Positions 1,538-19,848 of a DNA stretch of 25,055 nt are shown piece after piece. This DNA is from a virus. Location: positions 1 through 25,055 of the IMG/VR virus record IMGVR_UViG_3300035034_000588; one strand, 5' to 3'. Below the pieces are notes generated by a model, which searched no databases, was not told where the DNA came from, and saw only the letters and a list, made by a program, of their open reading frames with translations. Position 1 is the first letter of the stretch, and each line of letters opens with the position of its first letter. The position numbers were made by a program, and so were the translations under genes.

Positions 1538-1802
1538 TACATTAGCTAAATCACCATGACCACCCTTGAGGATAAAAGTAAAGGGTTAGACATCGGGTTG
1601 TAAGAAACAAGAGTTTACATAGTTTCTGAGTTGTCCCCGGTAGTGATGAAAATTGCATGAGTATAGATCTTAGGTTAGGTAAACTGCAGGTAAAGCAACT
1701 AACGAAGGTTAAATACGGTAAGATTGAAGTCTCATGTTAAAGATTCTTAGAAGACTCCTTTATTAGGATTTTGAAGGGGTAAGTTATACTTAATTTAAAG
1801 TA

Positions 1803-2905: not shown

Positions 2906-2936
2906 TTTTATACTTGCATATGTAAAAGTAATTTTG
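2903..2936 (+). promoter_or_regulatory. Candidate promoter for packaging/chaperonin operon
   Basis: TAATTTTG at 2929-2936 fits the Bacteroidota -7 element TAnnTTTG. TTG at 2903-2905 is 23 bases upstream, at the outer limit of the known spacing; another TTG lies at 2914-2916. The decamer TAATTTTGTA is shared with the site at 1530. The first gene starts 28 bases downstream (2965). It would drive the run of genes to the large terminase. Confidence 0.5.
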
Positions 2937-2964
2937 TATATTCGAATTGATAATTTAAGAACAT

Positions 2965-3351
2965 ATGGAGAAGAAGAGAATTAAACTTAACATAGATAAG
3001 AAGAAAATATTCCAGCTATACGTTGGAGTAATGAATCCTTTTCTTAAATTGTCTAATAGAGAGTCAGAGGTATTATCTCAATTGCTTTATTTGAATGATC
3101 ATTACAAAGAATACTCAGAAGGAGTTAAATGGAAAATGGTATTTGATAAAGATAATAGACGAAAAACATATGAAGATATGGAGATCTCTGTTCATCAATA
3201 CAATAATATATTGTCGTCATTAAGGAAGAAGAATATATTGCTTCCCGGTAATATTTTAACTAAGAAGTTGCTTATATATCCCGATAATGGTCTTAATATG
3301 AACTTTGAAATGAATGTAATTAATGAAAGAGTACCAGAAGCACATACGTAA
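2965..3351 (+). CDS. Winged-helix-like DNA-binding protein candidate
   Basis: A 128-residue basic protein with a lysine-rich start (EKKRIKLNIDKKKI). Residues about 24-45 (NPFLKLSNRESEVLSQLLYL) resemble the first helices of LuxR/MarR-type helix-turn-helix domains. Residues about 72-97 (YEDMEISVHQYNNILSSLRK, then KNILL) could be the turn, the recognition helix and the start of a wing. I infer a small wHTH regulator or virion DNA-binding protein. Its place as first gene of the operon, directly before the HU/IHF-like gene with a 29-base overlap, fits either a transcription regulator or a DNA-packaging factor. I do not recognise a named family. Confidence 0.7.
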   Translation: MEKKRIKLNIDKKKIFQLYVGVMNPFLKLSNRESEVLSQLLYLNDHYKEYSEGVKWKMVFDKDNRRKTYEDMEISVHQYNNILSSLRKKNILLPGNILTKKLLIYPDNGLNMNFEMNVINERVPEAHT

Positions 3352-3568
3352 GATATCATTGGAATACCAAATACCTGAAGAGGTTGTTGAAGCTGCAGTA
3401 CGAAGTATATATGAATACATTCGTTATAACAGTAAAGACCTTGTAAGTGTTAGGATTCCTAAATTTGGATTATTTGCAGTAAAACCTAATAGAGTAAAAT
3501 ATATAAATGAAAACAAAGAAAGAGGAAAGAAAGGTAGATCCGAGATTCAAGAGAACGATTCAGATTGA
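3323..3568 (+). CDS. HU/IHF-like DNA-binding protein
   Basis: An 81-residue protein of the bacterial HU/IHF type. Helix 1 (EYQKHIRKISLEYQIPEEVV) and helix 2 (VEAAVRSIYEYIRYN) form the dimer core. They are followed by the conserved strand VRIPKFGLFAVKPNRVKYIN, equivalent to the IPGFGKF region of HU. The long beta-arm that grips DNA is short or missing and is replaced by a lysine-rich tail (KERGKKGRSEIQ), so it is a minimal form. An IHF-like gene next to packaging genes is a known trait of crAss-like phages. It probably bends or compacts phage DNA. The start lies 29 bases inside the preceding gene and the end overlaps the next by 62 bases. Confidence 0.8.
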   Translation: MKEYQKHIRKISLEYQIPEEVVEAAVRSIYEYIRYNSKDLVSVRIPKFGLFAVKPNRVKYINENKERGKKGRSEIQENDSD

Positions 3569-3776
3569 ATTTAAAGGTAAGACCTTCCCAGTAGAACTTG
3601 ATGAAACTCCCCATAGACATAAAGATGAGGAATACGAAGTTTACAAAGAAAGACAGAAGATGGTAGCATACTTCAAGAAAATGGAGAAGAAAGAAATGCT
3701 ACATAAGAGTCTCAGCTACATTGATAAGATGGTTGGACAAAAAGGTATAACTTATAAAAATAAAGATAATGAGTAA
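3507..3776 (+). CDS. Small basic hypothetical protein overlapping HU gene
   Basis: An 89-residue lysine- and glutamate-rich protein. A likely beta-strand pair near the N-terminus (KRTIQIEFKGKTFPVELDET) is followed by a charged helix (EYEVYKERQKMVAYFKKMEK). I recognise no family. Its first 62 bases lie in another frame of the HU-like gene, and its end overlaps the GroES-like gene by 8 bases. The overlap supports translational coupling across HU, this protein and the chaperonins. The first ATG was kept because the next internal Met would remove the strand pair. It could be a chaperonin substrate adaptor or a DNA-bound virion protein, but this is speculation. Confidence 0.65.
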   Translation: MKTKKEERKVDPRFKRTIQIEFKGKTFPVELDETPHRHKDEEYEVYKERQKMVAYFKKMEKKEMLHKSLSYIDKMVGQKGITYKNKDNE

Positions 3777-4092
3777 AATAGTAGAAGGATTTGAAATACC
3801 AGAATTTACTCCACTAGGGAGATATATATTGATACCAGCATTACATAACGTAATGAAGTCATTAGAAGAAGCAGAGTTTGAAGACGATGGTTTGGTAGAG
3901 TCAGAAACTGAATTGTCAGAGAAAGACTTTCAAACAGTTGTTCTTGCTAAAGGTGAAGGGGTGTCAGAACTTATAGAACCGGGAGACAAAATACAAATTC
4001 TACCGCAAGGTGATTGGTGGGTTCCACTAACTATTGATGAGGTAGAATATTTTTTAATCAGAGATCACGTGGCAGTAGGTTTATTTAAATAA
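3769..4092 (+). CDS. groES: GroES-like co-chaperonin
   Basis: A 107-residue protein with the GroES (Cpn10) pattern. It has an N-terminal strand PLGRYILIPA (15-24), a loop region (25-53), the strand TVVLAKGEG (56-64, matching the VLAVGxG motif), the turn PGDKI (71-75), and a closing part VPLTIDEVEYFLIRDHVAVG (85-104). GroES forms a heptameric lid on GroEL. The loop that should contact GroEL is long, acidic and divergent: DDGLVES (39-45) stands where bacteria have the GGIVL motif, so it may be specific for the phage GroEL. It starts 8 bases inside the previous gene and lies 4 bases before groEL. Function by homology; confidence high. Confidence 0.85.
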   Translation: MSKIVEGFEIPEFTPLGRYILIPALHNVMKSLEEAEFEDDGLVESETELSEKDFQTVVLAKGEGVSELIEPGDKIQILPQGDWWVPLTIDEVEYFLIRDHVAVGLFK

Positions 4093-4096
4093 GAAT

Positions 4097-5650
4097 ATGA
4101 AGAAGATTATTTATAATAAAGAAGCACAAGGCAAACTTATAGAAGGGATAGATTTAGTAGCAGACGCTGTTAAGTTGACATTAGGACCTTCAGGAAGATA
4201 CATGGTAATAGGGAAGTCCTTTGGGCCCCCTATTACTACTAAAGATGGTGTAACAGTAGCTAGAAGTATAACGTCATCAGACCCTTCAATTAATATAGGG
4301 TGTGAGATGATAAAGCAAGTAGCCTCTCAACAATTAGAGACTGCAGGTGATGGTACTACAAGTGCTACTGTATTAGCACAAAGAATTATACATCTTTACA
4401 AAGATTCTGAAAAGTCTCCTCGTGAGATTAGAGATGAGTTTAAAGCAAAGACAGAATTTATAATTGAACAATTAGATTTAAATAAAAAACCATTAGAGAC
4501 TGATGAAGAACTTAAAGCTGTGGCAACGATTGCAACTAATGGTGACGAGGAACTTGGCACTCATGTGTTTAATGCTATTAAAGCTTCCGGAAAAGATGGG
4601 GAGGTTGTGGTTGAAAACTCTAAGAATGCTGAGACTAAGGTTGTATCATATCCCGGTTATATGTTCGAACGCGGATATGTTTCTCATCACTTTGCTGGGA
4701 CTAATGCAGAATGTAAGCTAGATGATGTTTATATTCTATTCTGTGATGATGAGATAAAAGACTGGCAGGAGATTAGGCATATTGCTGAAGCAGTTATGGC
4801 ACAGCGTAGGGAATTACTTATTGTGTGTAAAGATATTGCGGAAGGACCTCTTAGTAATTTGATTCTAAATATTCAACAAGGAAGGCTTAGGTCATGTGTA
4901 GTTAAACTACCAGCACTTCGTAACAGGGGTGAGATACTGCTTGAAGATTTAGCAATTAAAACGGGAGGTAAGGTTATATCACCTAAGAAAAAAGGACATC
5001 AACTTAGAAAGGTTCAACTAGAACATTTAGGACGATGTGATTCTGTTACGATTGATAAATCTAAAACAGTACTTGTAGGGGAGAAAGGTGATGAAGCAGC
5101 AATTGCTGAGAGAAAGAAACAAATAGAAGCTGACCTAGAAAAGGCTGATAAATTAGAAATTATATTACAAAAGGAAAGGTATGCTAAATTTATTAATGGC
5201 GTGTCTGTCTTATACGTTGGTGGTCACTCTGACGTTGATCTTGCAGAACGTAAGGCACGCATTGATGATGCTGTCCGTGCTACTAAAGAGGCTCTCAAAG
5301 AGGGAATAGTTCCCGGTGGAGGATTTGCTTTAGCTAGAGTTGCAAGCGATAATATACAAAAGTATGATGAGTTGTATTCTCCTTTAAGTACTATTGCAAG
5401 TAATTGTAATGATGTATTTGATTTAGAAATATCTGCAAAGCAAGAAGTGTATGATTTTGCGAAAGACGTTAGAGGAAACTATATTGAGCTTGGTATTATA
5501 GACCCTGTATCTGTTGTTAAAGAAACAGTTATTAACGCTTACAGTGTTGCAACGTTAGTTCTTTCTACAGCAGGGATGGTTTATAACGAAGACTTTGATA
5601 TGGAAGACGCGGTACTAGATGGTATAAAACACGGTAAAGACAGATTTTAA
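4097..5650 (+). CDS. groEL: GroEL-type chaperonin (group I, Cpn60)
   Basis: A 517-residue chaperonin that folds proteins inside an ATP-driven chamber. The ATP-site signatures are intact: LGPSGR (29-34), TKDGVTVA (48-55, D50), [11 protein letters not shown] (84-94, D85), the hydrolysis aspartate D391 in [14 protein letters not shown] (406-409), and GIIDP (466-470, D469). The apical domain has the GYVSHHF stretch equivalent to E. coli GYLSPYF. By eye, the segment between VAS and GIIDP is about 19 residues shorter than in E. coli, covering inter-ring contacts, and the protein ends HGKDRF without a GGM tail. Expected length is about 545. It sits one base before the next gene and close to terminase and capsid genes. 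Capsid-protein folding is the likely job (inference). Confidence 0.93.
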
Positions 5651-5651
5651 T

Positions 5652-6179
5652 ATGGCATCAATTCTAAGAAACTTCGCACCGGACATTTCATTTTGGGAAG
5701 CAAACCCAACAGTGAATACTATACCTGAGTTTTTAGAGTTGAAAGATAAATTAGGAGTTAAGAAGTCGTCTACTATTATGTGGGCGATTTCTTTTCTTTT
5801 AGACCAAAGTGAAGATAACGTATGGAAGAATATGCCGTATGAAGAAGCCGTTGGTCTTATAACATCTGATTACTTAGATGATTCTAATTTTGATTTTGAT
5901 GATTATGAAACTCAGATGAATGCTTATAAAAGACATCTTATGACTCATGGAGAAAGGTCATTGATGAACTGGAAGAATAAGCTTGAGGAGAGAGACAAAT
6001 TTTTAAAAGACACAGAGTACACTCTTGATACAGTTAAGACCATAGACACAGCTCAAAAAGACACTCTCGCTATATTTAAAATATATGAGCAGATACAAGA
6101 AAAGTTAGGACAGGAGGAAAGCGCATCTACAATTGTAGGTAAAAAGCAAGAGAGTGCATCAGAAAAAGGACAGATATGA
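5652..6179 (+). CDS. Conserved phage protein before terminase, possible small terminase
   Basis: A 175-residue mainly helical protein. The first half (SFWEANPTVNTIPEFLELKD, then KKSSTIMWAISFLLDQSEDN) appears globular. Residues about 95-150 are a long charged helix with coiled-coil features (HLMTHGERSLMNWKNKLEER). The tail is disordered and polar (ESASTIVGKKQESASEKGQ). I recognise no family. It starts one base after groEL, and its last bases form an ATGA overlap with the next gene, which itself overlaps terL. The position directly before the large terminase and the helical build fit a small-terminase analogue. Crassvirales small terminases are poorly defined, so this stays an inference. Confidence 0.7.
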   Translation: MASILRNFAPDISFWEANPTVNTIPEFLELKDKLGVKKSSTIMWAISFLLDQSEDNVWKNMPYEEAVGLITSDYLDDSNFDFDDYETQMNAYKRHLMTHGERSLMNWKNKLEERDKFLKDTEYTLDTVKTIDTAQKDTLAIFKIYEQIQEKLGQEESASTIVGKKQESASEKGQI

Positions 6180-6358
6180 GAACTGAATTTAAACTCGCAG
6201 AGTATGTATATGTTAGTACAGACCCTGATCAATTTAAGAGAATGATTATTGAAATCAGACAAAACTTTAATGGATATCTATATGTGTTATCCTTAGGTCC
6301 TGATACTACATTACATTATGCTGAAGAGTTAACTAGAGAAAGAACATTACAAATATGA
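6176..6358 (+). CDS. 60-residue protein coupled to terminase
   Basis: A 60-residue protein starting MRTEFKLAEYVYVSTDPDQF. It has an initial strand-like stretch, a helix (DQFKRMIIEIRQNF) and a second strand-like stretch (GYLYVLSLGPDTTLHYAEEL). I recognise no named family, though small proteins of this EFKLxxYVYV type occur next to terminase in related phages as far as I recall. It overlaps both neighbours by ATGA (6176-6179 and 6355-6358), strong evidence of a real, translationally coupled gene. It may be a packaging accessory. Confidence 0.7.
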   Translation: MRTEFKLAEYVYVSTDPDQFKRMIIEIRQNFNGYLYVLSLGPDTTLHYAEELTRERTLQI

Positions 6359-8775
6359 CAAACGATACTCCATTAAATATAACTGATTATCCTGAGTTTA
6401 TTAGAATAAATAATAAGAAAGCATTTCTAATAGATGAGATTCCTGATCATCATCCCGGGAGTATGAAGTATATACGTTTCTGGAGAGATGAGAAAAGAAA
6501 GTGTATCGAAGGGTTATGGACACAAGATACTAAAGATGAGGATGTAAAGGGTATGTATAGGTTTATGCCGCCTAATCTTTACTTTTATGTTAATCATGGA
6601 ACCATAGCTCACGTTAAAAAGAAAGGGCAACCGTTTGAAATAATCAGACCATTTCTTAGAGATGTTGAATGGGAGTTCTTTTATAATTGGATGGAGTGTA
6701 GAGGTTTCTCTGGATTTACAGATGATGATGAATATCATTGTATTAGAGAGAGGCATATAACAGAAATTGTAGAAAAAAAGACAAGAGCTGTTTATGAAAC
6801 AGAAGAGGATTGGAAAGACTACTGGGAAATGATTTGTAAAGATCAGCATGGTATTATAGACAAAGAATTGTATCATAACTATTACTCTAAAGAAACCGGT
6901 AAGCCTAAAAAATATATACCTGCTAGAGAATATATGAGGAAACTACATGATAAATCATTAGGTAGACCTTTGTATGCTAATCAAGCGTTAAATATGTTCC
7001 TGTTGGGCTCAAGGGGTTTTGGTAAATCATATATGGTTGGTGTCGGTGTAATACTACATGAATGGTTGTTTGATGGAGCTAAAGTTTATCAATTTGATCC
7101 TGAAAAAAAATGGCCGGGTAAAGTTGATGTATTTGTAGGAGCTGCTATTGCAGCTAAGTCTTCTGATCTTTTATCTAAGACATGGCAAGCATTTAACAAT
7201 ATGCCCGGTTCATGGGGAGAAGGTGAGAACTATGTACCACCGCCGTTTAAAAAGAATTTTTTAGGATCATTAAAAGCTAACAATGGTCAGTCTCCATTTA
7301 GACATCAATACGAAAAGAAGAAGGGTAACTCTACTATCATTGAAGGATCTGGTTCTGCTATAAAGCACGGTATTTATACCACAGAAAACCCAGAAGCTGC
7401 GGCTGGTGGACGTTACACGGTAGCTGCTATAGAAGAGGTAGGACTACTCCCAAATGTGCTCACCGTACATGGTTCAAATGAAGCAACACAGATAATTGGT
7501 GGTAATGTTATAGGTTCCAGTATTTATATTGGTACAGGCGGTAACATGGAAAAAATTGTAGAGTCTGAGATTATATTTAGAGATCCTGAAGGGTTTAGAT
7601 TCTTACCATTTGATAATAAATATGAGCCTAATGACGGTGGAAAGATAGGATGGTTTGTTCCTGCAATCTATAATATCAATGACTATAAAGATGAGAATGG
7701 AAATACCAACATTCCAAAAGCAATAGAGCATTATAATAAACGGCGTGAAAAAGCGAGGAGCGCAAGGGATAAGTCAGCTCTCGCCCTAGAGATGATGAAC
7801 TATCCATTAGTACCGAGCGAGATGTTCCTTAATACAGGACTAAATATATTTCCAGTTGCAGATCTTAAAATGCAGCTATCCTATGTTGTTAATAATCCTA
7901 ATAGATATAGAAACTTAAATCAAGTAGGTAGGTTTACTATTAACCCTGAGACTAAGAAAGTTGAGTATGTAGAAGATAGTACTCTTGAAGAAATTACTAG
8001 ATTCCCACTAAAAGATAATAAAGGAATGCCCGGTGCAGTAGTCATTAGAGAGCATCCTAAGACTAATCAAGACGGTACTATAATTACAGGTAGATACTTA
8101 CAAGGAACAGATACTTATGATGATGATGAAAGTGAAACTAATTCGTTTGGTTCTAGTTACATATTAGATACCTTTACTGACAGGATTGTTTGTGAATTTT
8201 TTGGTAGACCTTCTACTAATGAATTCTACGAGACTACCAGAAGGATGAATATGTATTACAATGCAATGCATAATTATGAAAACAACAAGAAAGGATTATT
8301 TACATATTACAGATATAAGAACTCAACACACTTACTTTCGGACACACCGGAGTCTTTAAGAGATATTGAAAACGTAACATTCTCTAAGAATGGTAATAAA
8401 GCAAAGGGTGTAAATGCTAGTAAAGCAATAAACTCATACGCAAGAGATCTTCTTGCTAATTGGCTAATAGAGCCGGCACCTGCCAAAGACGGTGATCCTG
8501 AGGAAGAAACATTAATGAATCTTCATAATATATGGAGTGAGGGATTGCTTAGAGAACTAATTTACTGGATGCCTGATGGTAACTATGACCGTGTATCCTC
8601 AATGGGTATGCTGTTAATTATTAGAGCAGATAGACAAAAGGTTATAGAAAATAGACGTAAAGGAGTTGAGGCTGCTGAAACTATATTTGAACATTCATTC
8701 TGGGCTAGAAATAGATCTACTAGTGATAACATATATGGTAAAAACGCTATTAGCCGCTATAAAAAAATATTTTAA
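6355..8775 (+). CDS. terL: Terminase large subunit (TerL)
   Basis: An 806-residue packaging motor with ATPase and nuclease parts. The Walker A motif is GSRGFGKS (218-225). A Walker B-like strand VAAIEE (356-361) has acidic residues E360 and E361. The C-terminal nuclease domain contains QGTDTYDDD (583-591, D586 the likely first metal ligand) and YDRVSSMGMLL (744-754, D745 the likely third ligand). The roughly 210 residues before Walker A are longer than in most phage terminases but fit the long crAss-like type. It is the last gene before a 64-base gap with a promoter candidate, so it may be the end of the packaging transcript. It cuts and translocates phage DNA into the prohead. Confidence 0.93.
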   Translation: MTNDTPLNITDYPEFIRINNKKAFLIDEIPDHHPGSMKYIRFWRDEKRKCIEGLWTQDTKDEDVKGMYRFMPPNLYFYVNHGTIAHVKKKGQPFEIIRPFLRDVEWEFFYNWMECRGFSGFTDDDEYHCIRERHITEIVEKKTRAVYETEEDWKDYWEMICKDQHGIIDKELYHNYYSKETGKPKKYIPAREYMRKLHDKSLGRPLYANQALNMFLLGSRGFGKSYMVGVGVILHEWLFDGAKVYQFDPEKKWPGKVDVFVGAAIAAKSSDLLSKTWQAFNNMPGSWGEGENYVPPPFKKNFLGSLKANNGQSPFRHQYEKKKGNSTIIEGSGSAIKHGIYTTENPEAAAGGRYTVAAIEEVGLLPNVLTVHGSNEATQIIGGNVIGSSIYIGTGGNMEKIVESEIIFRDPEGFRFLPFDNKYEPNDGGKIGWFVPAIYNINDYKDENGNTNIPKAIEHYNKRREKARSARDKSALALEMMNYPLVPSEMFLNTGLNIFPVADLKMQLSYVVNNPNRYRNLNQVGRFTINPETKKVEYVEDSTLEEITRFPLKDNKGMPGAVVIREHPKTNQDGTIITGRYLQGTDTYDDDESETNSFGSSYILDTFTDRIVCEFFGRPSTNEFYETTRRMNMYYNAMHNYENNKKGLFTYYRYKNSTHLLSDTPESLRDIENVTFSKNGNKAKGVNASKAINSYARDLLANWLIEPAPAKDGDPEEETLMNLHNIWSEGLLRELIYWMPDGNYDRVSSMGMLLIIRADRQKVIENRRKGVEAAETIFEHSFWARNRSTSDNIYGKNAISRYKKIF

Positions 8776-8790
8776 ATACTAATAATACTT

Positions 8791-8820
8791 TTGTTTATTA
8801 GAAAAAATTTGTATAATTTG
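8791..8820 (+). promoter_or_regulatory. Candidate promoter for portal/capsid genes
   Basis: TTG at 8791-8793 (in CTTTTG) is followed after 18 bases by TATAATTTG (8812-8820), a near match to the Bacteroidota -7 element TAnnTTTG. Spacing is in the accepted 17-23 range. The next gene starts 20 bases downstream at 8840. The site lies in the 64-base gap after terL, where no gene overlaps. Confidence 0.45.
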
Positions 8821-8839
8821 TAACGCATAAAATATTATA

Positions 8840-11296
8840 ATGGATAATACATCGTATAGAAAAGGACATTTTCCTCCACAAAAGTTAGCCACTACTAGAA
8901 AAACCAAGAAGTGGTTTGAGGAATGTATAGAAGCTGGTGAACAATTATCATTTGTATCAGATTCACGTATAAGACAAAGTTGGCAAAACAAGCGGGCTAA
9001 CTATGATCTTGCTAATGATAAATTAGATAACGCAGATGTTAAGAGGGTTACTAATCCTTATAGTATTGAAGGACTTACTATTCCTGCTAAAATGCAGAAC
9101 TATCCCGTAGCATTACCTAAGATAGATTTGTTAGTAGGTGAAGAGATGAAACGTAGATTTGACTGGAGAGTTAGAGTTGTCAATGAAGATGCTGTTACTC
9201 AAAAAGAAAAAGACATTCAAAAGCTTGTAAACGAAACTTTAGTTAATACTCTTACAGCAGGTGTTCAAGATAAACAAGAGTTTGAACAACGTATGAAGCG
9301 TCTTAACAGATTTAAAAATTACGAATACCAAGATGTAAGAGAACGTAGAGCTACACAACTTCTTAAGTATCTATGGAAAAAAGAGGAGCTTGAACATAAG
9401 TTTTCGAGATCTTTTATGGATTTACTAATCTCTTCAGAGGAGATAATGTGCATTGATATTATAGCTGGCGAACCAACTGTTAGAAAGGTTAACCCATTGG
9501 AATTACATGTTATTTCTAATGGTGATTCTCCTTACGTAGAGGACGCTGATATAATTATTGAAGATGGATATTATCCTCCCGGTAAGGTAATTGACATGTT
9601 TCATGATGAACTCAAAGACAAAGACGTTAAACGTATTATGGATGGTGACCTTACTGATAGTGGGGATAGTCATTTTTCATTGGGTGAAAGAGAGCGATCT
9701 ATTATACCTACAGGAGAGTTTGAAATCATTGCGGACCCCGAAACAGGAATCTTAGAAGAATCAGGATATAATGGTGGTAATAGAGGTTATAGAGGTGCAT
9801 TCGATTTAGATGGTAACGTACGTGTAATGCGTGTAGTTTGGAGAGGTGTTAAAAAGATTGGTAAGGTAAAATACTTTGATCCTCAAACACAATCTATAGA
9901 AGAAGATATTGTTCCTGAAACCTATAAAGCTAGAGAAGGAGAGAAAGTTAAATGGATCTGGATCAATGAATGGTATGAAGGTACTATGATAGGATCTGGT
10001 AAGGATTCTCTTAAAGTTAAGTTTGGACCAAGACCTATTCAGTTTAGATCTATGGACAATCCATCTAAGTGTCAATCAGGATATGTTGGTACTTACATGA
10101 ACATTAATGATTCAAGAGCTTATTCGTTGCTTGATAGAATGAAACCTTATCAGTATCTATACAATGTGTATATGTATCGTACTGAACAAGCTTTTGCTAA
10201 ATCATACGGAAAAATATTAAAGCTACCTTTACACTTGGTTCCTGACAATTGGGATCTTGATCAATGGTTAAACTATCTATTTCAGATGAATGTGATGGTA
10301 ACCGATGGTTTTAAAGAAGGTGATAAAGGAGCTTCTCAAGGAAAACTAGCTGGTTCTATGGATAGTAACAACATGGTTGCTGACTTAGAAATGGGTAATT
10401 ATATACAACAGCATCTTATGATGTTAGAGTATATTAAAAAGGAATTAGGTGAAATTGCAGGAGTTACTGAACAAAGACAGGGACAGATAGAAACTAGAGA
10501 GTTAGTAGGAAATGTTCAAAGAGCAGTAACTCAGTCAGCGCATATTACTGAGAAGTGGTTTAAAGTTCATGATAACTTTAAGAAACGTGTACTTACAATG
10601 CTACTTGAAACTGCTAAGTATGCTTACAAAGGTAAGACTATGAAACGCCAAATGATATTAGACGACATGACTAATATGTTGTTTGATATTCCCGGTGATG
10701 AAATCATGGAAGCTGATTATGGTCTATTCTTAAGTAACTCTGCTGCTGATACAGAATTGTTTGCTGACCTCAAGATGCTATCACAAGCTGCTCTTCAAAA
10801 TGATAAGATGAGTATTGGTGATATTATAGATGTCTACACTTCAGATTCTATTGCTACTATTAAGCGTAAGATTGAACTTGCAGAAGAAGAAAAGACTGAG
10901 ATGGAACGTCAGCAGTTTGAAAAACAAATGCAACAACAGCAACAAGCTACTCAAGCTCAGGTTCAGAACGAACAGGATAAACGCGCACTTGAAGAACGTA
11001 ATAATGTAAGAGATAACCAAACTAAGCTTCTTGTTGAAGAAATGAAACTAAGAGCTCAGTCAATGGCAGACTCTGGTGATTATGATGACGGACAATTGTC
11101 ACTTGAACTTAGAAAGCATTTAGATGGAATGAAAGTTAAAGAGCAAGAGTTGATAGCAAGTATGCAAGAAAGTCAAGCAAAACTATCTTTAGATGAAAGA
11201 AAAATAGAAGACTCTATGAAGATGCATAAGGATAAAATGATTCGAGAAGACAAAAAAATTAAGAAAATGGGAGCAAAGCCGGCAACCAAAAAGTAG
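8840..11296 (+). CDS. Portal protein
   Basis: An 818-residue protein in the normal portal position between terminase and capsid genes. The N-terminal part contains the patch KIDLLVGEEMKRRFDWRVRV (about 92-111). The middle is rich in strands and turns. Residues about 545-600 (IETRELVGNVQRAVTQSAHI, then TEKWFKVHDN) form the helical core expected of portals. The C-terminal 150 residues are a long charged, glutamine-rich helix (QFEKQMQQQQQATQAQ near residue 695), ending basic (KKMGAKPATKK). The length matches crAss-like portals. The protein forms a dodecamer at one capsid vertex, through which DNA enters and leaves. Confidence 0.88.
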   Translation: MDNTSYRKGHFPPQKLATTRKTKKWFEECIEAGEQLSFVSDSRIRQSWQNKRANYDLANDKLDNADVKRVTNPYSIEGLTIPAKMQNYPVALPKIDLLVGEEMKRRFDWRVRVVNEDAVTQKEKDIQKLVNETLVNTLTAGVQDKQEFEQRMKRLNRFKNYEYQDVRERRATQLLKYLWKKEELEHKFSRSFMDLLISSEEIMCIDIIAGEPTVRKVNPLELHVISNGDSPYVEDADIIIEDGYYPPGKVIDMFHDELKDKDVKRIMDGDLTDSGDSHFSLGERERSIIPTGEFEIIADPETGILEESGYNGGNRGYRGAFDLDGNVRVMRVVWRGVKKIGKVKYFDPQTQSIEEDIVPETYKAREGEKVKWIWINEWYEGTMIGSGKDSLKVKFGPRPIQFRSMDNPSKCQSGYVGTYMNINDSRAYSLLDRMKPYQYLYNVYMYRTEQAFAKSYGKILKLPLHLVPDNWDLDQWLNYLFQMNVMVTDGFKEGDKGASQGKLAGSMDSNNMVADLEMGNYIQQHLMMLEYIKKELGEIAGVTEQRQGQIETRELVGNVQRAVTQSAHITEKWFKVHDNFKKRVLTMLLETAKYAYKGKTMKRQMILDDMTNMLFDIPGDEIMEADYGLFLSNSAADTELFADLKMLSQAALQNDKMSIGDIIDVYTSDSIATIKRKIELAEEEKTEMERQQFEKQMQQQQQATQAQVQNEQDKRALEERNNVRDNQTKLLVEEMKLRAQSMADSGDYDDGQLSLELRKHLDGMKVKEQELIASMQESQAKLSLDERKIEDSMKMHKDKMIREDKKIKKMGAKPATKK

Positions 11297-11395
11297 AAAA
11301 GAGGCTATAGGTTACTTTATTAAAATGTAACAGATTTTATTATTTATTTGGATAATACAAAAATAATTTATTAATTTACATAAATCATATAAGAA

Positions 11396-12559
11396 ATGAG
11401 CGAATTTTTAGGAGGCGATTTGGAGTTTGATCTTGAGGACATTATTGATCCAGAAGGAACGGTCACCCCAGATAGCATAGAAGAAGGAAATGATGATAAT
11501 CCTAAGGATAAAAATCCTAAGGAAAAAGAAACTAGTAAAGATTCAAAAGAGGATGAAAACTTAATGGATCTTGATGCAGAAGGTAATGAGATTACAGCAA
11601 CCTCAAATGATGAGGATGAGGATGAAGATGACGTAGATGATAAGAAAGGAACTGAGGAAGGCTCCGACGACGACACTACAGAGAGTTCTTCTTCTTCCAA
11701 TATTGCTGATTATGCCTCTGCTCTCTACGAAGAAGGAGCCTTCCCGGATATTGATGAAAAGGAGTTAAAAGATGTAAAAACCGTTGAAGATCTGATCAAT
11801 TTAAATCGAAAGCAGATTCAAGCCAACGAGTTACGTGATCTTTCTCCCGATCAAAAAGAAGCTTTGAAAGCTTTTAGGAATGGTATTTCAGTTGACGAAT
11901 TCAAACAGATGAAGTCTAGTGAACTGCAATATGATTCTATTACTGACGATCAACTAAATGAAGAAGAAGTAGCAAGTAAAATTGTCACTGACTTTTTGCG
12001 TATGACTAATACTGATGAATCTGTTATTTCAGATTTGCTAGAGTCATATAAGATTGACGAAAAACTTTCTGATAAAGCAAAGACTTATCTTCCGAAGATA
12101 AAGAGTGCTATTAAAACTCAGAATGAGAATGCCGTTAGAGCAAGAGAAGTTGAGCGTGAGAATGCCGTTAAAGAAATTAAGTCTGGACTTGATTCAGTTA
12201 AAGAAGTCTTTAAAGGAGTTAGTCTGAACGAAAAAGAGAAGACAGAATTGTTTGAGCAAATGACACGACCTGTAAAGGTTTTAGAAGACGGGACTCAGCT
12301 AGATGCTGTAATGGCAAAACGAACTGAAGACCCCGTTAGTTTTATGATCAAACTACATTACTATACCAAACTAGGTTTATTTGATAAAGAGCCAAATACA
12401 GATTTCTTACAAACTAAAGAGAGAACTAAGGCACTTAAGAAACTAAGCGAAAAGTTTGATAAAGGAAATTCATCTAATCGCTTATCAGGTTCGAGGAAGA
12501 CATCGGATTCGGAGCTGTTTGATTTTGATGATATACCCGATGTACAAGTTAAATATTAA
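11396..12559 (+). CDS. Acidic scaffold-like protein
   Basis: A 387-residue, strongly acidic protein between portal and capsid genes, the usual place for scaffolding. Residues 1-105 are low-complexity and acidic (NDEDEDEDDVDDKKGTEEGS) followed by a serine run. The remainder is helical with charged repeats (AVRAREVERENAVKEIKSGL) and a conserved-looking globular part (PVSFMIKLHYYTKLGLF). The end is acidic again (LFDFDDIPDVQVKY). Phage scaffolds are usually acidic, helical and poorly conserved, so the inference is good, but sequence alone does not prove it. It begins 100 bases after the portal gene, a gap with weak promoter-like elements and no clear terminator. Confidence 0.72.
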   Translation: MSEFLGGDLEFDLEDIIDPEGTVTPDSIEEGNDDNPKDKNPKEKETSKDSKEDENLMDLDAEGNEITATSNDEDEDEDDVDDKKGTEEGSDDDTTESSSSSNIADYASALYEEGAFPDIDEKELKDVKTVEDLINLNRKQIQANELRDLSPDQKEALKAFRNGISVDEFKQMKSSELQYDSITDDQLNEEEVASKIVTDFLRMTNTDESVISDLLESYKIDEKLSDKAKTYLPKIKSAIKTQNENAVRAREVERENAVKEIKSGLDSVKEVFKGVSLNEKEKTELFEQMTRPVKVLEDGTQLDAVMAKRTEDPVSFMIKLHYYTKLGLFDKEPNTDFLQTKERTKALKKLSEKFDKGNSSNRLSGSRKTSDSELFDFDDIPDVQVKY

Positions 12560-12589
12560 TTATTAACCCGATTGCAAACTTAAAATAAC

Positions 12590-14077
12590 ATGGCTAAATT
12601 GTCGCAATTTCAAATGACAGATGCTAAATCGTGGAGTGGTATGACCACTAAAAATCACATCGGAGCGATTTGGAATGCTGCCCCACAGAAAGCATCTAAT
12701 ATAATGACAATGGTTCACCAAACCAACTTTGGTATGGATCTTGACACTTACCTTAATCAGTTTGGTGTTAAAGTTCTAGAAAACGAAGATGACTTTGTTT
12801 GGGAACTCATTGGTACTTCTAAAAAGAACATTCCTCTTGTTGAGGCACGTCTTACACGGAATGGTTCGGCGATAGCTGCTACTGATAAACCCGGGGTTGG
12901 CTTTAGCCGATTCTTCATGGTTTTTGAAGAGCAGTGGTTTACTGACGTAAACGTTATCGTAGGACACATGAATGAACTTTACCCACTTCGAATCGTTGCT
13001 GATCCGGAACCAGATGGAAACTACTGGGTGTATGAGGTAGAGCTTATGTCCGATAGTTCTGACAAGTATATGGACACCGAAGAATTGGTTGCCGGACGTA
13101 GATTCAGTAAAGACTGGTCTATCGTTGAGCAAACTCTTTCTAGAAAAGGTGGTGGAGTTAACTTCACTTCTCCTTTCTCGATGAGAAATCAGTTCACTAT
13201 GATCCGTATGCAACACCAGACTCCCGGTAACATGATCAACCGTCCGTTTGGAACGATGTTCAAAAACGATAAAGGACAGACATTTAAGATCTGGACTCAA
13301 TATCAAGATTATCAATTCGACCACCAATTCCGTTTGGAGAAAAATCGTGGACTTATGTTCGCTACTTCAAACCGTAAATCTGATGGATCTTATGGTAACT
13401 TTGGTAAGTCAGGTTTTGTCATTAAACAAGGTGCTGGTATCCGTCAACAAATGGAAGCTTCGAACACAGTGTTCTATAATGACTTTACCATTAAGTATCT
13501 ATTGAATGTTCTATTGGATCTTTCCGAGAATAAGTTGTCAATGGACCAACGTAAGTTCGTCTTGAAGACAGGTGAACGTGGTGCTGTACAGTTCCACTAT
13601 GCTCTTGAAGATTTCTCTCAATTGTTCCAACCCCTCTTTAACGAGGATAGGATGTTTAAAAATGATGGTATGGGACTTACCTCACTTGGCCTTGGCTATG
13701 GTGGACAGTTCCTACGTTACGTTGGCCCAATGGGAATTGAGGTTTCTGTTTCTGTAGATTCTCTATATTCTGATAGAGAAAGAAACAAAATCTATCACCC
13801 AGATGGTGGTGTAGCTGAGTCGTATCGTTATGACATTCTTGATGTAGGAACTTCAGCAGGAGAAGCAAACATTCAGAAAGTTATGGCTAAAGGACAAGAA
13901 GATATCTGGGGATATGAGCCCGGACTTCGTGATCCTTATTCACCAACTGGTGGACGAATGAAGTATATGGCTAACGCTGTTGATGGTTATACAGTACACC
14001 GAGCATGTGTGTTTGGTGCTAAAGTAACTGATCCATCACGTACCGCTAGCTTTATTCCTAACATTCTAGCAGCGTAA
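12590..14077 (+). CDS. Major capsid protein
   Basis: A 495-residue protein after portal and scaffold-like genes. The length is that of crAss-like HK97-fold capsid proteins. It starts MAKLSQFQMTDAKSWSGMTT and contains long mixed stretches typical of capsid shells, with many glycine/phenylalanine turns (GFSRFFMVFEEQWFTDVNVI). There is no signal peptide and few cysteines. Codons are noticeably richer in G and C than in the fibre genes, as expected for a very highly expressed gene. It starts without a Shine-Dalgarno site (TTAAAATAAC before ATG), in line with Bacteroidota initiation. It is probably the main client of the nearby GroEL (inference). Confidence 0.88.
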   Translation: MAKLSQFQMTDAKSWSGMTTKNHIGAIWNAAPQKASNIMTMVHQTNFGMDLDTYLNQFGVKVLENEDDFVWELIGTSKKNIPLVEARLTRNGSAIAATDKPGVGFSRFFMVFEEQWFTDVNVIVGHMNELYPLRIVADPEPDGNYWVYEVELMSDSSDKYMDTEELVAGRRFSKDWSIVEQTLSRKGGGVNFTSPFSMRNQFTMIRMQHQTPGNMINRPFGTMFKNDKGQTFKIWTQYQDYQFDHQFRLEKNRGLMFATSNRKSDGSYGNFGKSGFVIKQGAGIRQQMEASNTVFYNDFTIKYLLNVLLDLSENKLSMDQRKFVLKTGERGAVQFHYALEDFSQLFQPLFNEDRMFKNDGMGLTSLGLGYGGQFLRYVGPMGIEVSVSVDSLYSDRERNKIYHPDGGVAESYRYDILDVGTSAGEANIQKVMAKGQEDIWGYEPGLRDPYSPTGGRMKYMANAVDGYTVHRACVFGAKVTDPSRTASFIPNILAA

Positions 14078-14098
14078 TATTAATTTAAATAATAAAAA

Positions 14099-14977
14099 AT
14101 GGAAGAATTAGATACACAAGTTGAATTTAAACTACCTAATAAGATAGTTTACATTAAACCTATTAAGGGGCGTTCATGGTTGCCAGACGACCATTCAGCA
14201 AGTTTTTTATTTGGAGAATCCAGCATTGAATATGTTGTACCGCAGGATAGTAGAGGGGTCCTAGTTGACCCCCTTACTCCTTCGGAAAGAGAATTCTTTG
14301 AAAGTAGGAAATCTTCAGGAATGGATTTCGAGCTTGGTGATTTATCAGTACATAAAAAAGAAGATAACTATTGGCATAGTTTTAAAGTAAAGCTAGATTC
14401 AAGACAGACAAAGCTTGATCTATCTAAACCTATAGACTATATTCGATATAAAGTTCTTTTGACGAATAAGAAATATATTTGTCCTACTGCTGATAAAGAG
14501 GCTGTTGATCGTAAATTAAGTTATAAGTTTTGTATAGCAGAAGAGGGTGAGGAAATCAGACGTAAAGCCACAGGCATTGATGCTTTGAAAGAAGCTTTTA
14601 AATTCTATGGTAGAATGTCAGCATCTAACGATGATATGATTGACTTTCTAAAGCAATATAAACTTAAGAATACTAAATTCAAAAAAGCTATTCCAAAAGA
14701 TGCTAAAGACACATTTCTTAAATCTGAAATCAGTGGTATCATAGACAAAAACCTAGATATGTTTCTAGAGATTGTAAATGATCCTTACTACGAAGATAAG
14801 AAACTAGTTGTTAATGGTCTTGAAAAAGGAGCTATTGAATTAGTGGGACGAACATACCAAACACCAGAGGGAGTATTCCTAGGTGATACAAGTAATGAGG
14901 TCGTTAAATATCTTAACAACAAGATGAATAACGAAATCAAACTACAAATAATGGGTAGAATAGAAAATAGTAAGTAA
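14099..14977 (+). CDS. Conserved virion protein after capsid gene
   Basis: A 292-residue protein starting MEELDTQVEFKLPNKIVYIK. The first half is strand-rich and includes YWHSFKVKLDSRQTKLDLSK. The second half is helical (IDALKEAFKFYGRMSA; FLEIVNDPYYEDKKLVV). I know of no function. A gene of this type next to the capsid gene is seen in crAss-like phages as far as I recall, so a capsid auxiliary or head-vertex role is reasonable. Its last base is the first base of the next start (TAATG), showing coupling with the connector gene at 14977. Confidence 0.72.
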   Translation: MEELDTQVEFKLPNKIVYIKPIKGRSWLPDDHSASFLFGESSIEYVVPQDSRGVLVDPLTPSEREFFESRKSSGMDFELGDLSVHKKEDNYWHSFKVKLDSRQTKLDLSKPIDYIRYKVLLTNKKYICPTADKEAVDRKLSYKFCIAEEGEEIRRKATGIDALKEAFKFYGRMSASNDDMIDFLKQYKLKNTKFKKAIPKDAKDTFLKSEISGIIDKNLDMFLEIVNDPYYEDKKLVVNGLEKGAIELVGRTYQTPEGVFLGDTSNEVVKYLNNKMNNEIKLQIMGRIENSK

Positions 14978-15657
14978 TGACAGCAAACGAAATGTATAAC
15001 AATTTTCAGCTAGAGTACGACCGTGTGGCTTCCGATGCCGCTAAGGGTTGGCTTCCTGAAGAAGTTGCTTGGTTTATCAACTCGTATTCTTCTGATCTAT
15101 TAAGGATCAAGACAGAATCATCTGATAATGCTAAAAGACAAAGCTATATATTTCCGTTTAAAAGGTCACAAATACTTATTCAATCATCAGATCAGACAGG
15201 AGCCACGGGACCGAGTAGTGTATTATTCGAAATACCGTCAGACTATCCCGGACGTTCAGAAAAGGAAGTTGTAAAGTGGATCAATTGTGATTTCACCTCG
15301 ACTGTGACTCCTGTTACTGATGATGAATATTTTTCCCTAAATATAGACGAAACAAAAGCGTCAAGCGTATTAGAATTGAGAAGGCTACTAATGAGTAGAC
15401 CGTCCAATTCAGAAAATTTAATAGAATTATTTTTACCAAAAGGTTCGAATTTAGTTGTAGATGAATATTTAATTACGTATATTCGAGAACCTAGGTTGGT
15501 AGTAATAGACTTAGATAATCCAGATGATCAAGTTAACTCGGAGTATCCGGCTAACAAACATTATGAGGTTATCAGAGGAGCAGTACTTTACGCTTTAGAA
15601 GCGGCTGCTGATAGTAGGTTGCAGACATTTCCTGTGAAACCTATTAATTTTAACTAA
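14977..15657 (+). CDS. Head-tail connector / ring protein candidate
   Basis: A 226-residue protein with a helical N-terminus (TANEMYNNFQLEYDRVASDA, then PEEVAWFINSYSSDLLRIK), a strand-rich middle (EYLITYIREPRLVVIDLDN), and a C-terminal helix (HYEVIRGAVLYALEAAADSR). This pattern recalls the neck/ring proteins that follow capsid genes in Bacteroidota phages, which join the portal to the tail. The start shares one base with the previous stop. The 24-base gap to the next gene is A/T-rich. I place it in that class by pattern, not by a certain homolog. Confidence 0.68.
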   Translation: MTANEMYNNFQLEYDRVASDAAKGWLPEEVAWFINSYSSDLLRIKTESSDNAKRQSYIFPFKRSQILIQSSDQTGATGPSSVLFEIPSDYPGRSEKEVVKWINCDFTSTVTPVTDDEYFSLNIDETKASSVLELRRLLMSRPSNSENLIELFLPKGSNLVVDEYLITYIREPRLVVIDLDNPDDQVNSEYPANKHYEVIRGAVLYALEAAADSRLQTFPVKPINFN

Positions 15658-15681
15658 ATGTTTAATTTAAAATAAATAAAT

Positions 15682-16941
15682 ATGTCTACTTTTGCACAAA
15701 ATCATGTACAACAATTGTTTGTTGGTGGAACAGCCGCCAAAACTGCAAGCGGTACATTATCTGATGCTAACGCAGGAGAAATTTGCATTTTGTCACCACA
15801 AGGTCAAATCCTAACAGAAGCAACTGCTCTTACAGCGGATGCTTTTAAGATTGGTATCAATCGTGGTGGGGAACCTGATGTCGTATCAGACATTATAGAG
15901 AAAGCCAAGGTAAAGCACTTTGGATTAAAAACCTACACAGCTGCTACCGAGCAACTTGATTATATTGGTTATAATGGAACCACTGGTTCTATTGAAGTCA
16001 ATAACAACGCTCTTTACTACGTACGTCTTTATATGGAAGATCTTCATAACAGATCATCTTCTGACGGAAAACGAGTAAAGTTTGGAACTTATAAATCAAC
16101 CTCATCTGCTACTCAAGAATCTATTGCTACTGGAGTTACAAAATCTTTGATTTTTAATTTCGATCGTGAAGCTGAAGATCAAATCAAATTTGAACGAGTT
16201 TGTGATGAAGCTGGTGTTGGTGCCGCTGGTGCTAGTACGGTTACCGTAACAAAAGGATCTAAGATTCTTGAAGTTGATGCTGCAGTTACATCTTTGGTGG
16301 CTGGTGATTATCTTCGAATCGGAGGTACTGGTACTACAAGCCCTGTTTTCAAAGTTACTGAAATCGTTGGCACCACTGCTGTTAAAATTGACGTTCCTTT
16401 CCAAGGAGATAGCGCAGTAGTTGCTATCGCAAACGTTGAACGAATTGCAGCTGCCGATGCTATTTCTGCTGAGTTTGGTATCAAACTTACAGGTCTTCCT
16501 CTTGACTTTAAACTTGGTAAAATCAAGTATAAGAAAAGCCGATGGGAAACTCAGCTTGACACTACTGAAGGTTTCAATGCTACCCCAATTACACGTTCAG
16601 CTGCCGCTACTCCCGGTACTGGTGTAGTTGAAATTGTTAAAGAACTAGAATGGTTCACTCAAGGTAACGAAGGTGAATTCTTCCGTATGGGAGAACCTAA
16701 CATCTTCGATGCTCGTCAAGATGCTGTCAGCACTGTTGCTGGTGGTGGATATGACTTGATTGATATCTTGTTCGTTAATGACGAAGTACTTGGAATTGGT
16801 AGTCTTGTATCTGCCAGTAAGCATGTAACACTTGCTATTCCTGCTACTGCGCCCGCGTATGCTACAGGTGCTGATGACATCACTGATGTTCTCGAAGTAT
16901 TACTTGCAGGATCAGCTGACGGAAGTCTCGCTGTATCGTAA
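15682..16941 (+). CDS. Abundant virion structural protein (tail tube-like or capsid auxiliary)
   Basis: A 419-residue beta-rich protein. Residues about 125-175 (KRVKFGTYKSTSSATQESIA, then IFNFDREAEDQIKFERV) and about 180-255 (a Thr/Val/Ala-rich insertion, TVTVTKGSKILEVDAAVTSL) look like separate beta-sandwich domains. The protein is rich in Ala, Thr and Gly, and its codons are more G/C-rich than those of the fibre genes, as for the capsid gene. It is preceded by A/T-rich sequence (TTTAATTTAAAATAAATAAAT) and followed by a strong terminator. It may be a tail-tube-type protein or an auxiliary capsid protein; a short-tailed crAss-like phage favours the latter or a barrel protein. The precise role is undetermined. 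Confidence 0.7.
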   Translation: MSTFAQNHVQQLFVGGTAAKTASGTLSDANAGEICILSPQGQILTEATALTADAFKIGINRGGEPDVVSDIIEKAKVKHFGLKTYTAATEQLDYIGYNGTTGSIEVNNNALYYVRLYMEDLHNRSSSDGKRVKFGTYKSTSSATQESIATGVTKSLIFNFDREAEDQIKFERVCDEAGVGAAGASTVTVTKGSKILEVDAAVTSLVAGDYLRIGGTGTTSPVFKVTEIVGTTAVKIDVPFQGDSAVVAIANVERIAAADAISAEFGIKLTGLPLDFKLGKIKYKKSRWETQLDTTEGFNATPITRSAAATPGTGVVEIVKELEWFTQGNEGEFFRMGEPNIFDARQDAVSTVAGGGYDLIDILFVNDEVLGIGSLVSASKHVTLAIPATAPAYATGADDITDVLEVLLAGSADGSLAVS

Positions 16942-16957
16942 GATGAATAAAATAAAG

Positions 16958-16988
16958 GAAGAGGGGAAACTCTCCTCTCTTCTTTTTT
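16958..16988 (+). terminator. Rho-independent terminator after structural block
   Basis: GAAGAGGGGA (16958-16967) pairs with TCTCCTCTTC-like bases (16973-16982) to form a 10-base stem with one G-U pair and a 5-base loop, followed by TTTTTT (16983-16988). It ends the capsid-to-419-residue unit and separates it from the fibre module. Confidence 0.85.
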
Positions 16989-17022
16989 ATCTTACTTTTT
17001 TTAACTTTTAATTCTTGTCGAA

Positions 17023-17556
17023 ATGGCCTTAGTACCTAAATATACAGCATGCTTAAAAAAGAAAGGGACTGAGTTTAATTTTGTAGATACTACTGGTGCA
17101 TATAATGTAACCACTAATCCTACAGGATGGAACACTCCTAATGAAGCTGGGTCCGATGTGACTTCAGCTTATTTTCGTATTACATCACCTTCAGGCTCAA
17201 TTTATGATTATGATATTACTTCTCAAATACCAGATACAATAACTGGTGATATAGAGTATACAGCATATTTAGGTGATTGGGAAGATGGCGTATATCAATT
17301 TGAATACATTATAAACGGATTAGTATCTTATAATGTATGCTTAAAAAAATTCTTTTCTCCTAAAATTGATTGTTGCATAGATGAAGTTCTCTACAAATTT
17401 GTAGATGAATACCTATGTGATGATTGTTACGATTCTGAAGAAATTATATCCTTAACTTATTTTAGAGACATGTTACATGTAACAGCTCTTACCAAAAACG
17501 AAACTCAAATCAAAGAAGCTCTAGAGTTCCTAGAAGATCTTTGTAATTGCTTATAA
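17023..17556 (+). CDS. Cysteine-rich hypothetical structural protein
   Basis: A 177-residue protein. The N-terminal two thirds are beta-rich (EAGSDVTSAYFRITSPSGSI; EYTAYLGDWEDGVYQFEYII). The C-terminal third is helical and carries clustered cysteines (KIDCCIDEVLYKF, YLCDDCYDSEE, LEDLCNCL). The paired cysteines could bind a metal or form intra-particle disulfides. I recognise the layout from small proteins near fibre genes of Bacteroidota phages but not a named family. It is the first gene after the terminator at 16958-16988, and the next gene also begins with cysteine pairs, suggesting that the two interact. Confidence 0.68.
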   Translation: MALVPKYTACLKKKGTEFNFVDTTGAYNVTTNPTGWNTPNEAGSDVTSAYFRITSPSGSIYDYDITSQIPDTITGDIEYTAYLGDWEDGVYQFEYIINGLVSYNVCLKKFFSPKIDCCIDEVLYKFVDEYLCDDCYDSEEIISLTYFRDMLHVTALTKNETQIKEALEFLEDLCNCL

Positions 17557-17573
17557 TTTAAACTCTTTAAAAA

Positions 17574-18203
17574 ATGGCTTGTAACTGCTCCTCGTCTTGT
17601 AATTGTGATTCTGGTGTTGAACTTATTGGTGTTGTTGATGGAGTAGATGCTCCTTCAATTTCTAATATAGTTGTTAATGGAGATAACACTATTTCGTTTA
17701 CTTTTTCTGATTCCAGTACTATTACTACTGCTGCTGTAACTGTTAATGATCCAGCGGCTTTATCATATTTATATTACCACAGTCTTTCAACTTCTTCTTT
17801 CACATTAGGAGCCAATCTATTAGCAACTGAAGGTGATAAATTAAAGATTTTATATACAGGTACTGTACCTGATACAGATCCTTTGAATATAGAATTTGAT
17901 GGTAACACACTATTTCAATATACTAATACTACTGGTAATGATTCTGAATTCCAAGTTAATATGGAAGTAATAAGAGCATCATCTAATAGGTTACAAACGA
18001 TTGGTTCGTTAAGTATATTTAATAATGATGTTCCTATATTAGGTGATACTAATGTATTTACTACAACTTCGGTAATACAAATAGATTCTTTTGAAGGATC
18101 TTCAAATACTTATGATTTTACAAGTACTATAGATTTTGATGGCAACGGAGGAGGAACCACTGTAATATCATTGTTAAATGTTGAATTAATAACAAACGAC
18201 TAA
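17574..18203 (+). CDS. Beta-rich protein with N-terminal cysteine pairs
   Basis: A 209-residue protein that starts MACNCSSSCNCDSG, with four cysteines within 11 residues, then becomes a serine/threonine/asparagine-rich beta protein (NTISFTFSDSSTITTAAVTV; SNTYDFTSTIDFDGNGGGTT). The composition is that of a fibre or head-decoration domain. The Cys pairs could hold a metal or anchor the protein to the Cys-rich protein encoded just upstream. It is followed one base later by the decapeptide-repeat fibre gene. No family is recognised with certainty. Confidence 0.65.
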   Translation: MACNCSSSCNCDSGVELIGVVDGVDAPSISNIVVNGDNTISFTFSDSSTITTAAVTVNDPAALSYLYYHSLSTSSFTLGANLLATEGDKLKILYTGTVPDTDPLNIEFDGNTLFQYTNTTGNDSEFQVNMEVIRASSNRLQTIGSLSIFNNDVPILGDTNVFTTTSVIQIDSFEGSSNTYDFTSTIDFDGNGGGTTVISLLNVELITND

Positions 18204-18204
18204 A

Positions 18205-19203: not shown

Positions 19204-19212
19204 TAATAAATT

Positions 19213-19794: not shown

Positions 19795-19848
19795 ATGTTT
19801 AGATCTAAAAATATATCTGAATGGAGATGATACATTACCTATATAATT

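Follow-up and report, generated by a model that had tools for sequence, protein, structure and literature searches.

A diverged GroES-GroEL gene pair among the packaging genes of a crAss-like phage

The window, i.e. the whole stretch of DNA analysed here, is a linear viral record of 25,055 bases. The phage belongs to Crassvirales, with a marker set made up of the major capsid protein (MCP), an auxiliary capsid match (PF25650, E=3e-13) and the PHROG terminase and portal families. The ring 3/4 match (PF25710) is weak, 21.4 versus 27 bits. An earlier reading made from the sequence only had called it a probable crAss-like phage, which the MCP match (PF23898, E=1e-156) bears out. Among GenBank entries, Cellulophaga phage phi14:2 (Steigviridae) is the closest relative, at 44% identity in the MCP and 48% in the terminase large subunit (TerL). 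The features of the locus are as follows:

2965..3351, + strand: orfA, the conserved gene that opens the module; tblastn homologues upstream of TerL in most Crassvirales loci
3323..3568, + strand: orfB, candidate HU/IHF-like small DNA-binding protein (Pfam and synteny)
3507..3776, + strand: orfC, 89-aa protein (ORF; overlaps the GroES start)
3769..4092, + strand: GroES-like co-chaperonin, 107 aa, with a diverged mobile loop (hhalign, AF2/Foldseek, dN/dS)
4097..5650, + strand: GroEL-like group I chaperonin, 517 aa (PF00118, PHROG 5725, PRK12849, residue tables)
5652..6179, + strand: 175-aa protein, TerS (small-terminase) candidate by position (tblastn: conserved beside TerL in many loci)
6176..6358, + strand: 60-aa ORF between the TerS candidate and TerL (ORF; 62% identical in contigs L091/L092)
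6355..8775, + strand: TerL (PHROG 6681, E=5e-102)
8840..11296, + strand: portal protein (PHROG 6547, E=8e-133)
12590..14077, + strand: Crassvirales MCP (PF23898, E=1.3e-156)

By synteny, orfA stands in the place of Gp13 of Bacteroides phage crAss001, annotated as a putative VpsT-like transcriptional regulator, and orfB in the place of crAss001 Gp14 (protein HU); the function of orfA is thus putative, and the Pfam scores of orfB (PF14908, E=0.0013; PF00216, E=0.0055) both lie below the cut-off. The groES ORF overlaps the preceding ORF by 8 bases and is separated from groEL by a gap of 4 bases. Coordinates and spacing of the two genes had been given exactly in the sequence-only reading. Its statement that the pair lies directly upstream of terminase holds as far as placement in the packaging operon is concerned, but two ORFs (5652-6179 and 6176-6358) separate GroEL from TerL. 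The gene adjoining terL is likely TerS in crAss-like phages (PMC7886860). A sigma-70 scan of the window found fewer promoter-like sites than expected by chance. A Bacteroidetes-type promoter pattern (TTTG...TAnnTTTG) is present at 2902-2936, just before orfA, although the enrichment of this pattern is weak (4 sites in the window versus 1.7 expected).

The ORF at 4097-5650 is without doubt a group I chaperonin. It matches Pfam PF00118 (Cpn60_TCP1) with E=1.3e-40 (139.9 bits versus a cut-off of 34.3), PHROG 5725 'chaperonin groEL' with E=3e-112, and NCBIfam PRK12849 with 412 bits, above the cut-off of 352. The score against the GroEL equivalog model TIGR02348 is below the cut-off (392.5 versus 582.1 bits), so the protein is a diverged chaperonin and by the NCBI standard no orthologue. 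The best solved structure for it is an ancestral (reconstructed) Bacteroidetes-group GroEL (E=3e-94); the match to the chaperonin of phage EL is far weaker (E=1e-25). Conservation of the ATP-site residues D50, D85, D391 and D469, noticed already from the letters of the sequence, agrees with the alignment to E. coli GroEL, where they correspond to D52, D87, D398 and D495. All four aspartates are present in every crassviral GroEL tabulated. The GGM tail is missing from the window protein.

Identification of the small protein as GroES rests on profile comparison, structure prediction and synteny taken together. Single-sequence searches gave no Pfam or NCBIfam match, a PDB sequence search gave no GroES match, tblastn against phage records found nothing, and the match to PHROG 3188 (GroES) has E=0.022. 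Profile comparison by hhalign is more sensitive: against 74 phage GroES sequences, a profile of the window protein and its homologue in the independent contig L091 reaches 91%, and 96-97% when further relatives are included, while control profiles of five neighbouring gene families stay at or below 0.4%. As a further control, 200 single small ORFs were drawn at random, and no more than four of them came to about 89% against the GroES profile. Three of these four sit in loci with TerL in place, all upstream of TerL, i.e. where GroES homologues are expected. The next-best random ORF (29%) was later recognised as GroES-like, of the phi14:2 group. An AlphaFold2 model built on a 47-sequence alignment, which took in canonical GroES, has pLDDT 81; with 12 paired-family GroES sequences alone the model is poor (pLDDT 48). 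In a Foldseek search with the window model, ranks 1-28 are all GroES/Cpn10/gp31 entries (E from 1.4e-4, TMq 0.48-0.57), T4 gp31 (1g31) among the matches with E=2.8e-3, and the only confident matches outside this group are two chains of the ClpP complex entry 7ekq, at ranks 29 and 32. The model thus predicts a GroES fold for the window protein. Moreover, the gene lies after an HU-like gene and before TerL, in the place of crAss001 Gp15, annotated as 'putative 10kDa chaperonin'.

Contig L091 is collinear with positions 2906-9759 of the window at 76% DNA identity, and its TerL is 82% identical. It has the same gene order, with an orfC homologue in the same place (64% identical), GroES 62% and GroEL 73% identical to the window proteins. 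dN/dS between the two is 0.20 for groES, 0.18 for groEL and 0.10 for terL, with synonymous sites near saturation. The presence of the same pair under purifying selection in an independent contig indicates that it is neither an assembly error nor decaying; misassembly, which the sequence-only reading had itself named as a way to be wrong, is thereby ruled out. The pair is real and, judged from the sequence data, looks functional.

Two further observations concern these contigs. A 10.6-kb viral contig (L171) is 100% identical to window positions 10263-20876 and probably comes from the same phage. We also noticed a non-coding stretch at the divergent operon start (window 1540-1800, L091 about 135-400), which has 82% identity versus 76% for the genes. 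In a hairpin with a 6-bp stem (about 1603-1627) both sides have changed with pairing kept, AGAAAC/GTTTCT in the window versus CTTTAC/GTAAAG in L091. The stretch matches no Rfam family, its fold energy is not below that of shuffled sequences, and its exact motifs are found only in the L091 contig. It is possibly a structured RNA.

The GroES-family gene is distributed over almost the whole order. Scans with TerL and MCP alignments yielded about 155 crassviral loci; when viral contigs were searched with the window GroEL as the sole query, nothing matched, and alignment queries were required. Of the 63 Crassvirales loci that hold TerL and at least 3 kb of upstream sequence, 58 have a GroES-family ORF no more than 6 kb before TerL, and no GroES-family matches are found elsewhere among the 5,057 ORFs of TerL loci. 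Since some of the sequences behind the GroES profiles come from these very loci, the rate of matches cannot count as independent evidence, whereas the absence of matches elsewhere can. Chaperonin genes are less regular. Out of 98 TerL loci, GroEL lies directly behind GroES in 14 distinct ones, GroES is alone in 35, and 7 (one truncated) have GroEL with no adjacent GroES. The distance from the GroES 3' end to TerL is mostly 0.5-1 kb when GroES is alone and mostly 2.1-2.9 kb in paired loci. The extra distance equals the size of one groEL, which places groEL after groES and ahead of the gene that precedes TerL. GroEL presence requires seven changes on the TerL tree, and 19 of 28 whole records, crAss001 included, give no PF00118 match. 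In viral contigs generally, about 70 of the best 80 GroEL loci (L011-L090) have a canonical GroES nearby, in most cases immediately before GroEL; environmental phages thus commonly carry GroES-GroEL pairs.

Some 'phage' GroEL records resemble bacterial DNA (L041, H11, H14, H21, H22); the GroEL of L041 hardly differs from that of Acinetobacter, and H11 and H14 are 501-kb Salmonella contigs. Inspection by eye of crassviral loci also revealed Hsp20-like small heat-shock ORFs a few genes after GroES in loci missing GroEL (L135, 1325-1714; L136, 7472-7876), and DUF2829/Tad2 (anti-Thoeris)-like ORFs between GroES and TerL (L100, 7129-7872) or just upstream of GroES (L142, 1370-1840).

Regarding the origin of the chaperonin, the closest cellular GroEL among the matches listed in a GTDB-wide scan is 38% identical to the window protein, which argues against recent capture from a host. 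Recent host transfer is ruled out on these grounds, and with it the near-identical host gene that the sequence-only reading had considered as a possible outcome. In an unrooted tree all 20 crassviral GroELs, together with those of Cellulophaga phage Calle_3 and the elemo phages, are split from cellular and most other phage GroELs (SH-aLRT 94). On the question raised earlier, whether the gene clusters with host or with phage chaperonins, the crassviral proteins come to lie outside the cellular clade. A single crassviral GroEL clade is not rejected (pAU 0.91), although the long branches leave it unproven. Rooting with the EL chaperonin is unreliable, since its end branch is 7.9, and our conclusions use the unrooted split.

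The surfaces by which GroES and GroEL contact each other are altered in paired loci. Apical residues Y199, Y203, F204, L234, L237, L259, V263 and V264 are the substrate- and GroES-binding residues of E. coli GroEL, as defined by mutagenesis. At these eight positions the host consensus is kept in 26% of cases in paired crassviral GroELs versus 82% in other phage GroELs, and the window GroEL agrees at three of the eight, with R at the L234, A at the L237 and H at the Y203 position (E. coli numbering). At 21 positions of the ATP site, the corresponding values are 84% and 96%. The mobile loop of GroES, whose hydrophobic motif in E. coli is I25-V26-L27, behaves similarly. Counted by aligned column, a hydrophobic-x-hydrophobic motif is present in 25 of 25 non-crassviral and in 16 of 16 lone crassviral GroES, and in none of six paired ones. 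The window protein has L-V-E at the aligned position, where the loop alignment is uncertain; the alignment of paired GroES loops is uncertain in general, as L091 has 'VSL' one residue outside the aligned register. Paired loci are related, and therefore the interface counts are not independent. In addition, phi14:2-type phages have a diverged GroEL face and yet their GroES keeps an I-x-L-like loop, which means that a changed interface and pairing do not always go together. A change of both faces at once, combined with a conserved ATPase engine, is, as far as sequences can tell, the trace that co-evolution into a private pair would leave.

The inter-ring contacts are also altered. Positions 452 and 461 (R452 and E461) are R/K and E/D, respectively, in 79 of 79 cellular GroELs. 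Among the 14 paired crassviral GroELs only two have K at 452 and none has an acidic residue at 461, and V464 is likewise not conserved, in a region where the alignment is gappy. With these residues changed, the chaperonin may be a single ring.

Based on these results we consider it rather likely that the phage encodes its own chaperonin system, a private folding chamber for one or more phage proteins such as capsid or portal. The following order of events would account for the data. GroES would be a long-standing member of the packaging operon of crAss-like phages and, where it is alone, may cap host GroEL in the way of T4 gp31. In some lineages, that of the window phage included, a phage groEL lies between groES and the TerS candidate. 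The contact surfaces of both proteins would then diverge while the ATPase core stays intact, and the two would form a private chamber, made at the same time as the packaging and virion proteins, whose clients may be one or more abundant phage proteins, e.g. capsid or portal. The data themselves establish what the genes are, their synteny, the intactness of the ATP site, purifying selection on both genes, their distance from host proteins and the altered residues of the interface. From these we infer mutual binding of the two proteins, exclusion of the host partner and the existence of such clients; gene order suggests expression together with the packaging operon and its probable timing. A dedicated chamber had been proposed in the sequence-only reading from placement. 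The rewritten interface supports it and the position beside virion genes fits a role in morphogenesis, while the choice of capsid or portal for the client is a positional guess. A more specific version, in which a lone co-chaperonin gained a chaperonin and both rewrote their interface into a host-orthogonal, possibly single-ring pair, is put forward tentatively, as the less probable side of an uneven bet. If it is true, folding of phage proteins neither depends on nor competes with the host chaperonin.

Alternatively, phage GroES could cap host GroEL while the phage GroEL subunit enters or modifies host rings and shifts their client range, with no separate chamber. Most often in Crassvirales GroES occurs alone, as exemplified by crAss001 Gp15, and acting with host GroEL was therefore probably the ancestral way of working; the intact ATP site also speaks for this reading. 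However, the low identity to the closest host GroEL among the matches listed and the departure of the GroES-binding positions and mobile loop from the host pattern speak against it, and the lack of conserved inter-ring residues makes mixed double rings less likely; we regard this explanation as unlikely. A chaperonin that acts alone, with the neighbouring GroES serving host GroEL separately, seems improbable to us as well. The chaperonins of the giant phages EL, OBP and AR9 are reported to be co-chaperonin-free (PMC9598537), the GroES-binding face is rewritten here, and phi14:2 and crAssphage cr108_1 carry the two genes apart. Against this stand the 14 adjacent loci with the genes side by side in the same order and the greater closeness of the sequence to bacterial GroEL than to EL; the adjacent GroES gene in the window argues against independence of the EL/OBP/AR9 type. 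A third alternative, a general stress or host-takeover gene that lets the infected cell fold more protein and serves no virion client in particular, we give only a small chance. GroEL is patchy on the TerL tree and widespread in unrelated phages, as is typical of accessory genes, but throughout the order GroES hardly ever leaves its place beside the packaging genes, and a mere dosage effect would not fit the diverged interface. That the contig is misassembled or contains host DNA can practically be dismissed: the record is a linear fragment, but L091 is collinear with it and the protein is distant from the cellular GroELs among the matches listed.

CrAss-like phages are among the most abundant human gut viruses, and our search turned up no account of the folding of their virion proteins. 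Our results show that the crassviral packaging operon almost always includes a GroES-family gene, usually one that is not annotated as such, and that Crassvirales hold a natural series from a lone co-chaperonin to a complete pair. Such a series offers a test of how the interface between chaperonin and co-chaperonin changes once the virus owns both halves, and of whether capsid folding is the reason.

Several known systems resemble the locus in part. In bacteriophage lambda the capsid is folded by host GroEL-GroES, and T4 and RB49 supply their own GroES (PMC9598537). T4 gp31 and RB49 CocO are phage GroES orthologues, and the model of the window protein matches gp31; they work with host GroEL, whereas the window phage encodes a cognate GroEL; its groES is not a lone gene of the gp31 type, as groEL starts 4 bases downstream. 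The giant-phage chaperonins of EL, OBP and AR9 share with the window GroEL (in this case by prediction) a phage-encoded GroEL-like ATPase, although the EL sequence is distant. Viral chaperonins are widespread and expressed in soil (PMC8390657), and chaperonins occur near some phage DNA polymerases (PMC11348598). Flavobacterium phage immuto, Calle_3, the elemo phages and Bacteroides phage DAC19 have a chaperonin close to a co-chaperonin, as in the window. They differ in not being Crassvirales and, within the stretches seen, in lying outside a packaging operon; Calle_3 has one ORF between the two genes, elemo has the reverse gene order, and immuto and DAC19, unlike the window phage, largely keep the bacterial interface.

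Within Crassvirales, phi14:2 has GroEL (g105) upstream of TerL, portal and MCP, as in the window. Its g096 (L001, 7767-8156), annotated as hypothetical, is a diverged GroES by profile comparison (95-97%) in the core GroES position, and was missed by a whole-record profile search. In contrast to the window, GroEL is about 2.3 kb upstream of this gene, not adjacent, and 36% identical, and GroES retains the hydrophobic-x-hydrophobic loop. Similarly, cr108_1 has an annotated chaperonin (KNV36_gp090) upstream of TerL and a GroES-family match after it (ORF 14052-14264, E=6e-11) in the hypothetical gene KNV36_gp084 (L008, 14079-14459); the two are about 1.5 kb apart and GroEL is 30-32% identical to that of the window. 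Both phages thus own both genes, not side by side. Gp15 of crAss001 has the same syntenic place as the window GroES (HU, GroES, TerL) but is lone, with a canonical GGII loop, and the whole 102,679-base genome gives no PF00118 match.

The main text of both crAss001 papers, the crAssBcn isolate paper and the 2021 crAss-like survey does not mention chaperonins. Our search, with most subscription journals and supplements outside it, found no description of the pair in Crassvirales or of GroES as a constant crassviral gene. The pair had been called unusual; this judgement is weakened by what is already annotated, namely GroEL in phi14:2 and cr108_1, the lone '10 kDa chaperonin' of crAss001, and GroES-GroEL pairs in phages of Bacteroidota outside Crassvirales. 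The part that looks new is the order-wide position of GroES upstream of TerL and the subset of phages with groEL directly behind groES and a rewritten interface. Compared with the sequence-only reading, the surprise is therefore smaller for GroEL in a crAss-like phage and larger for the position of GroES and the rewritten interface.
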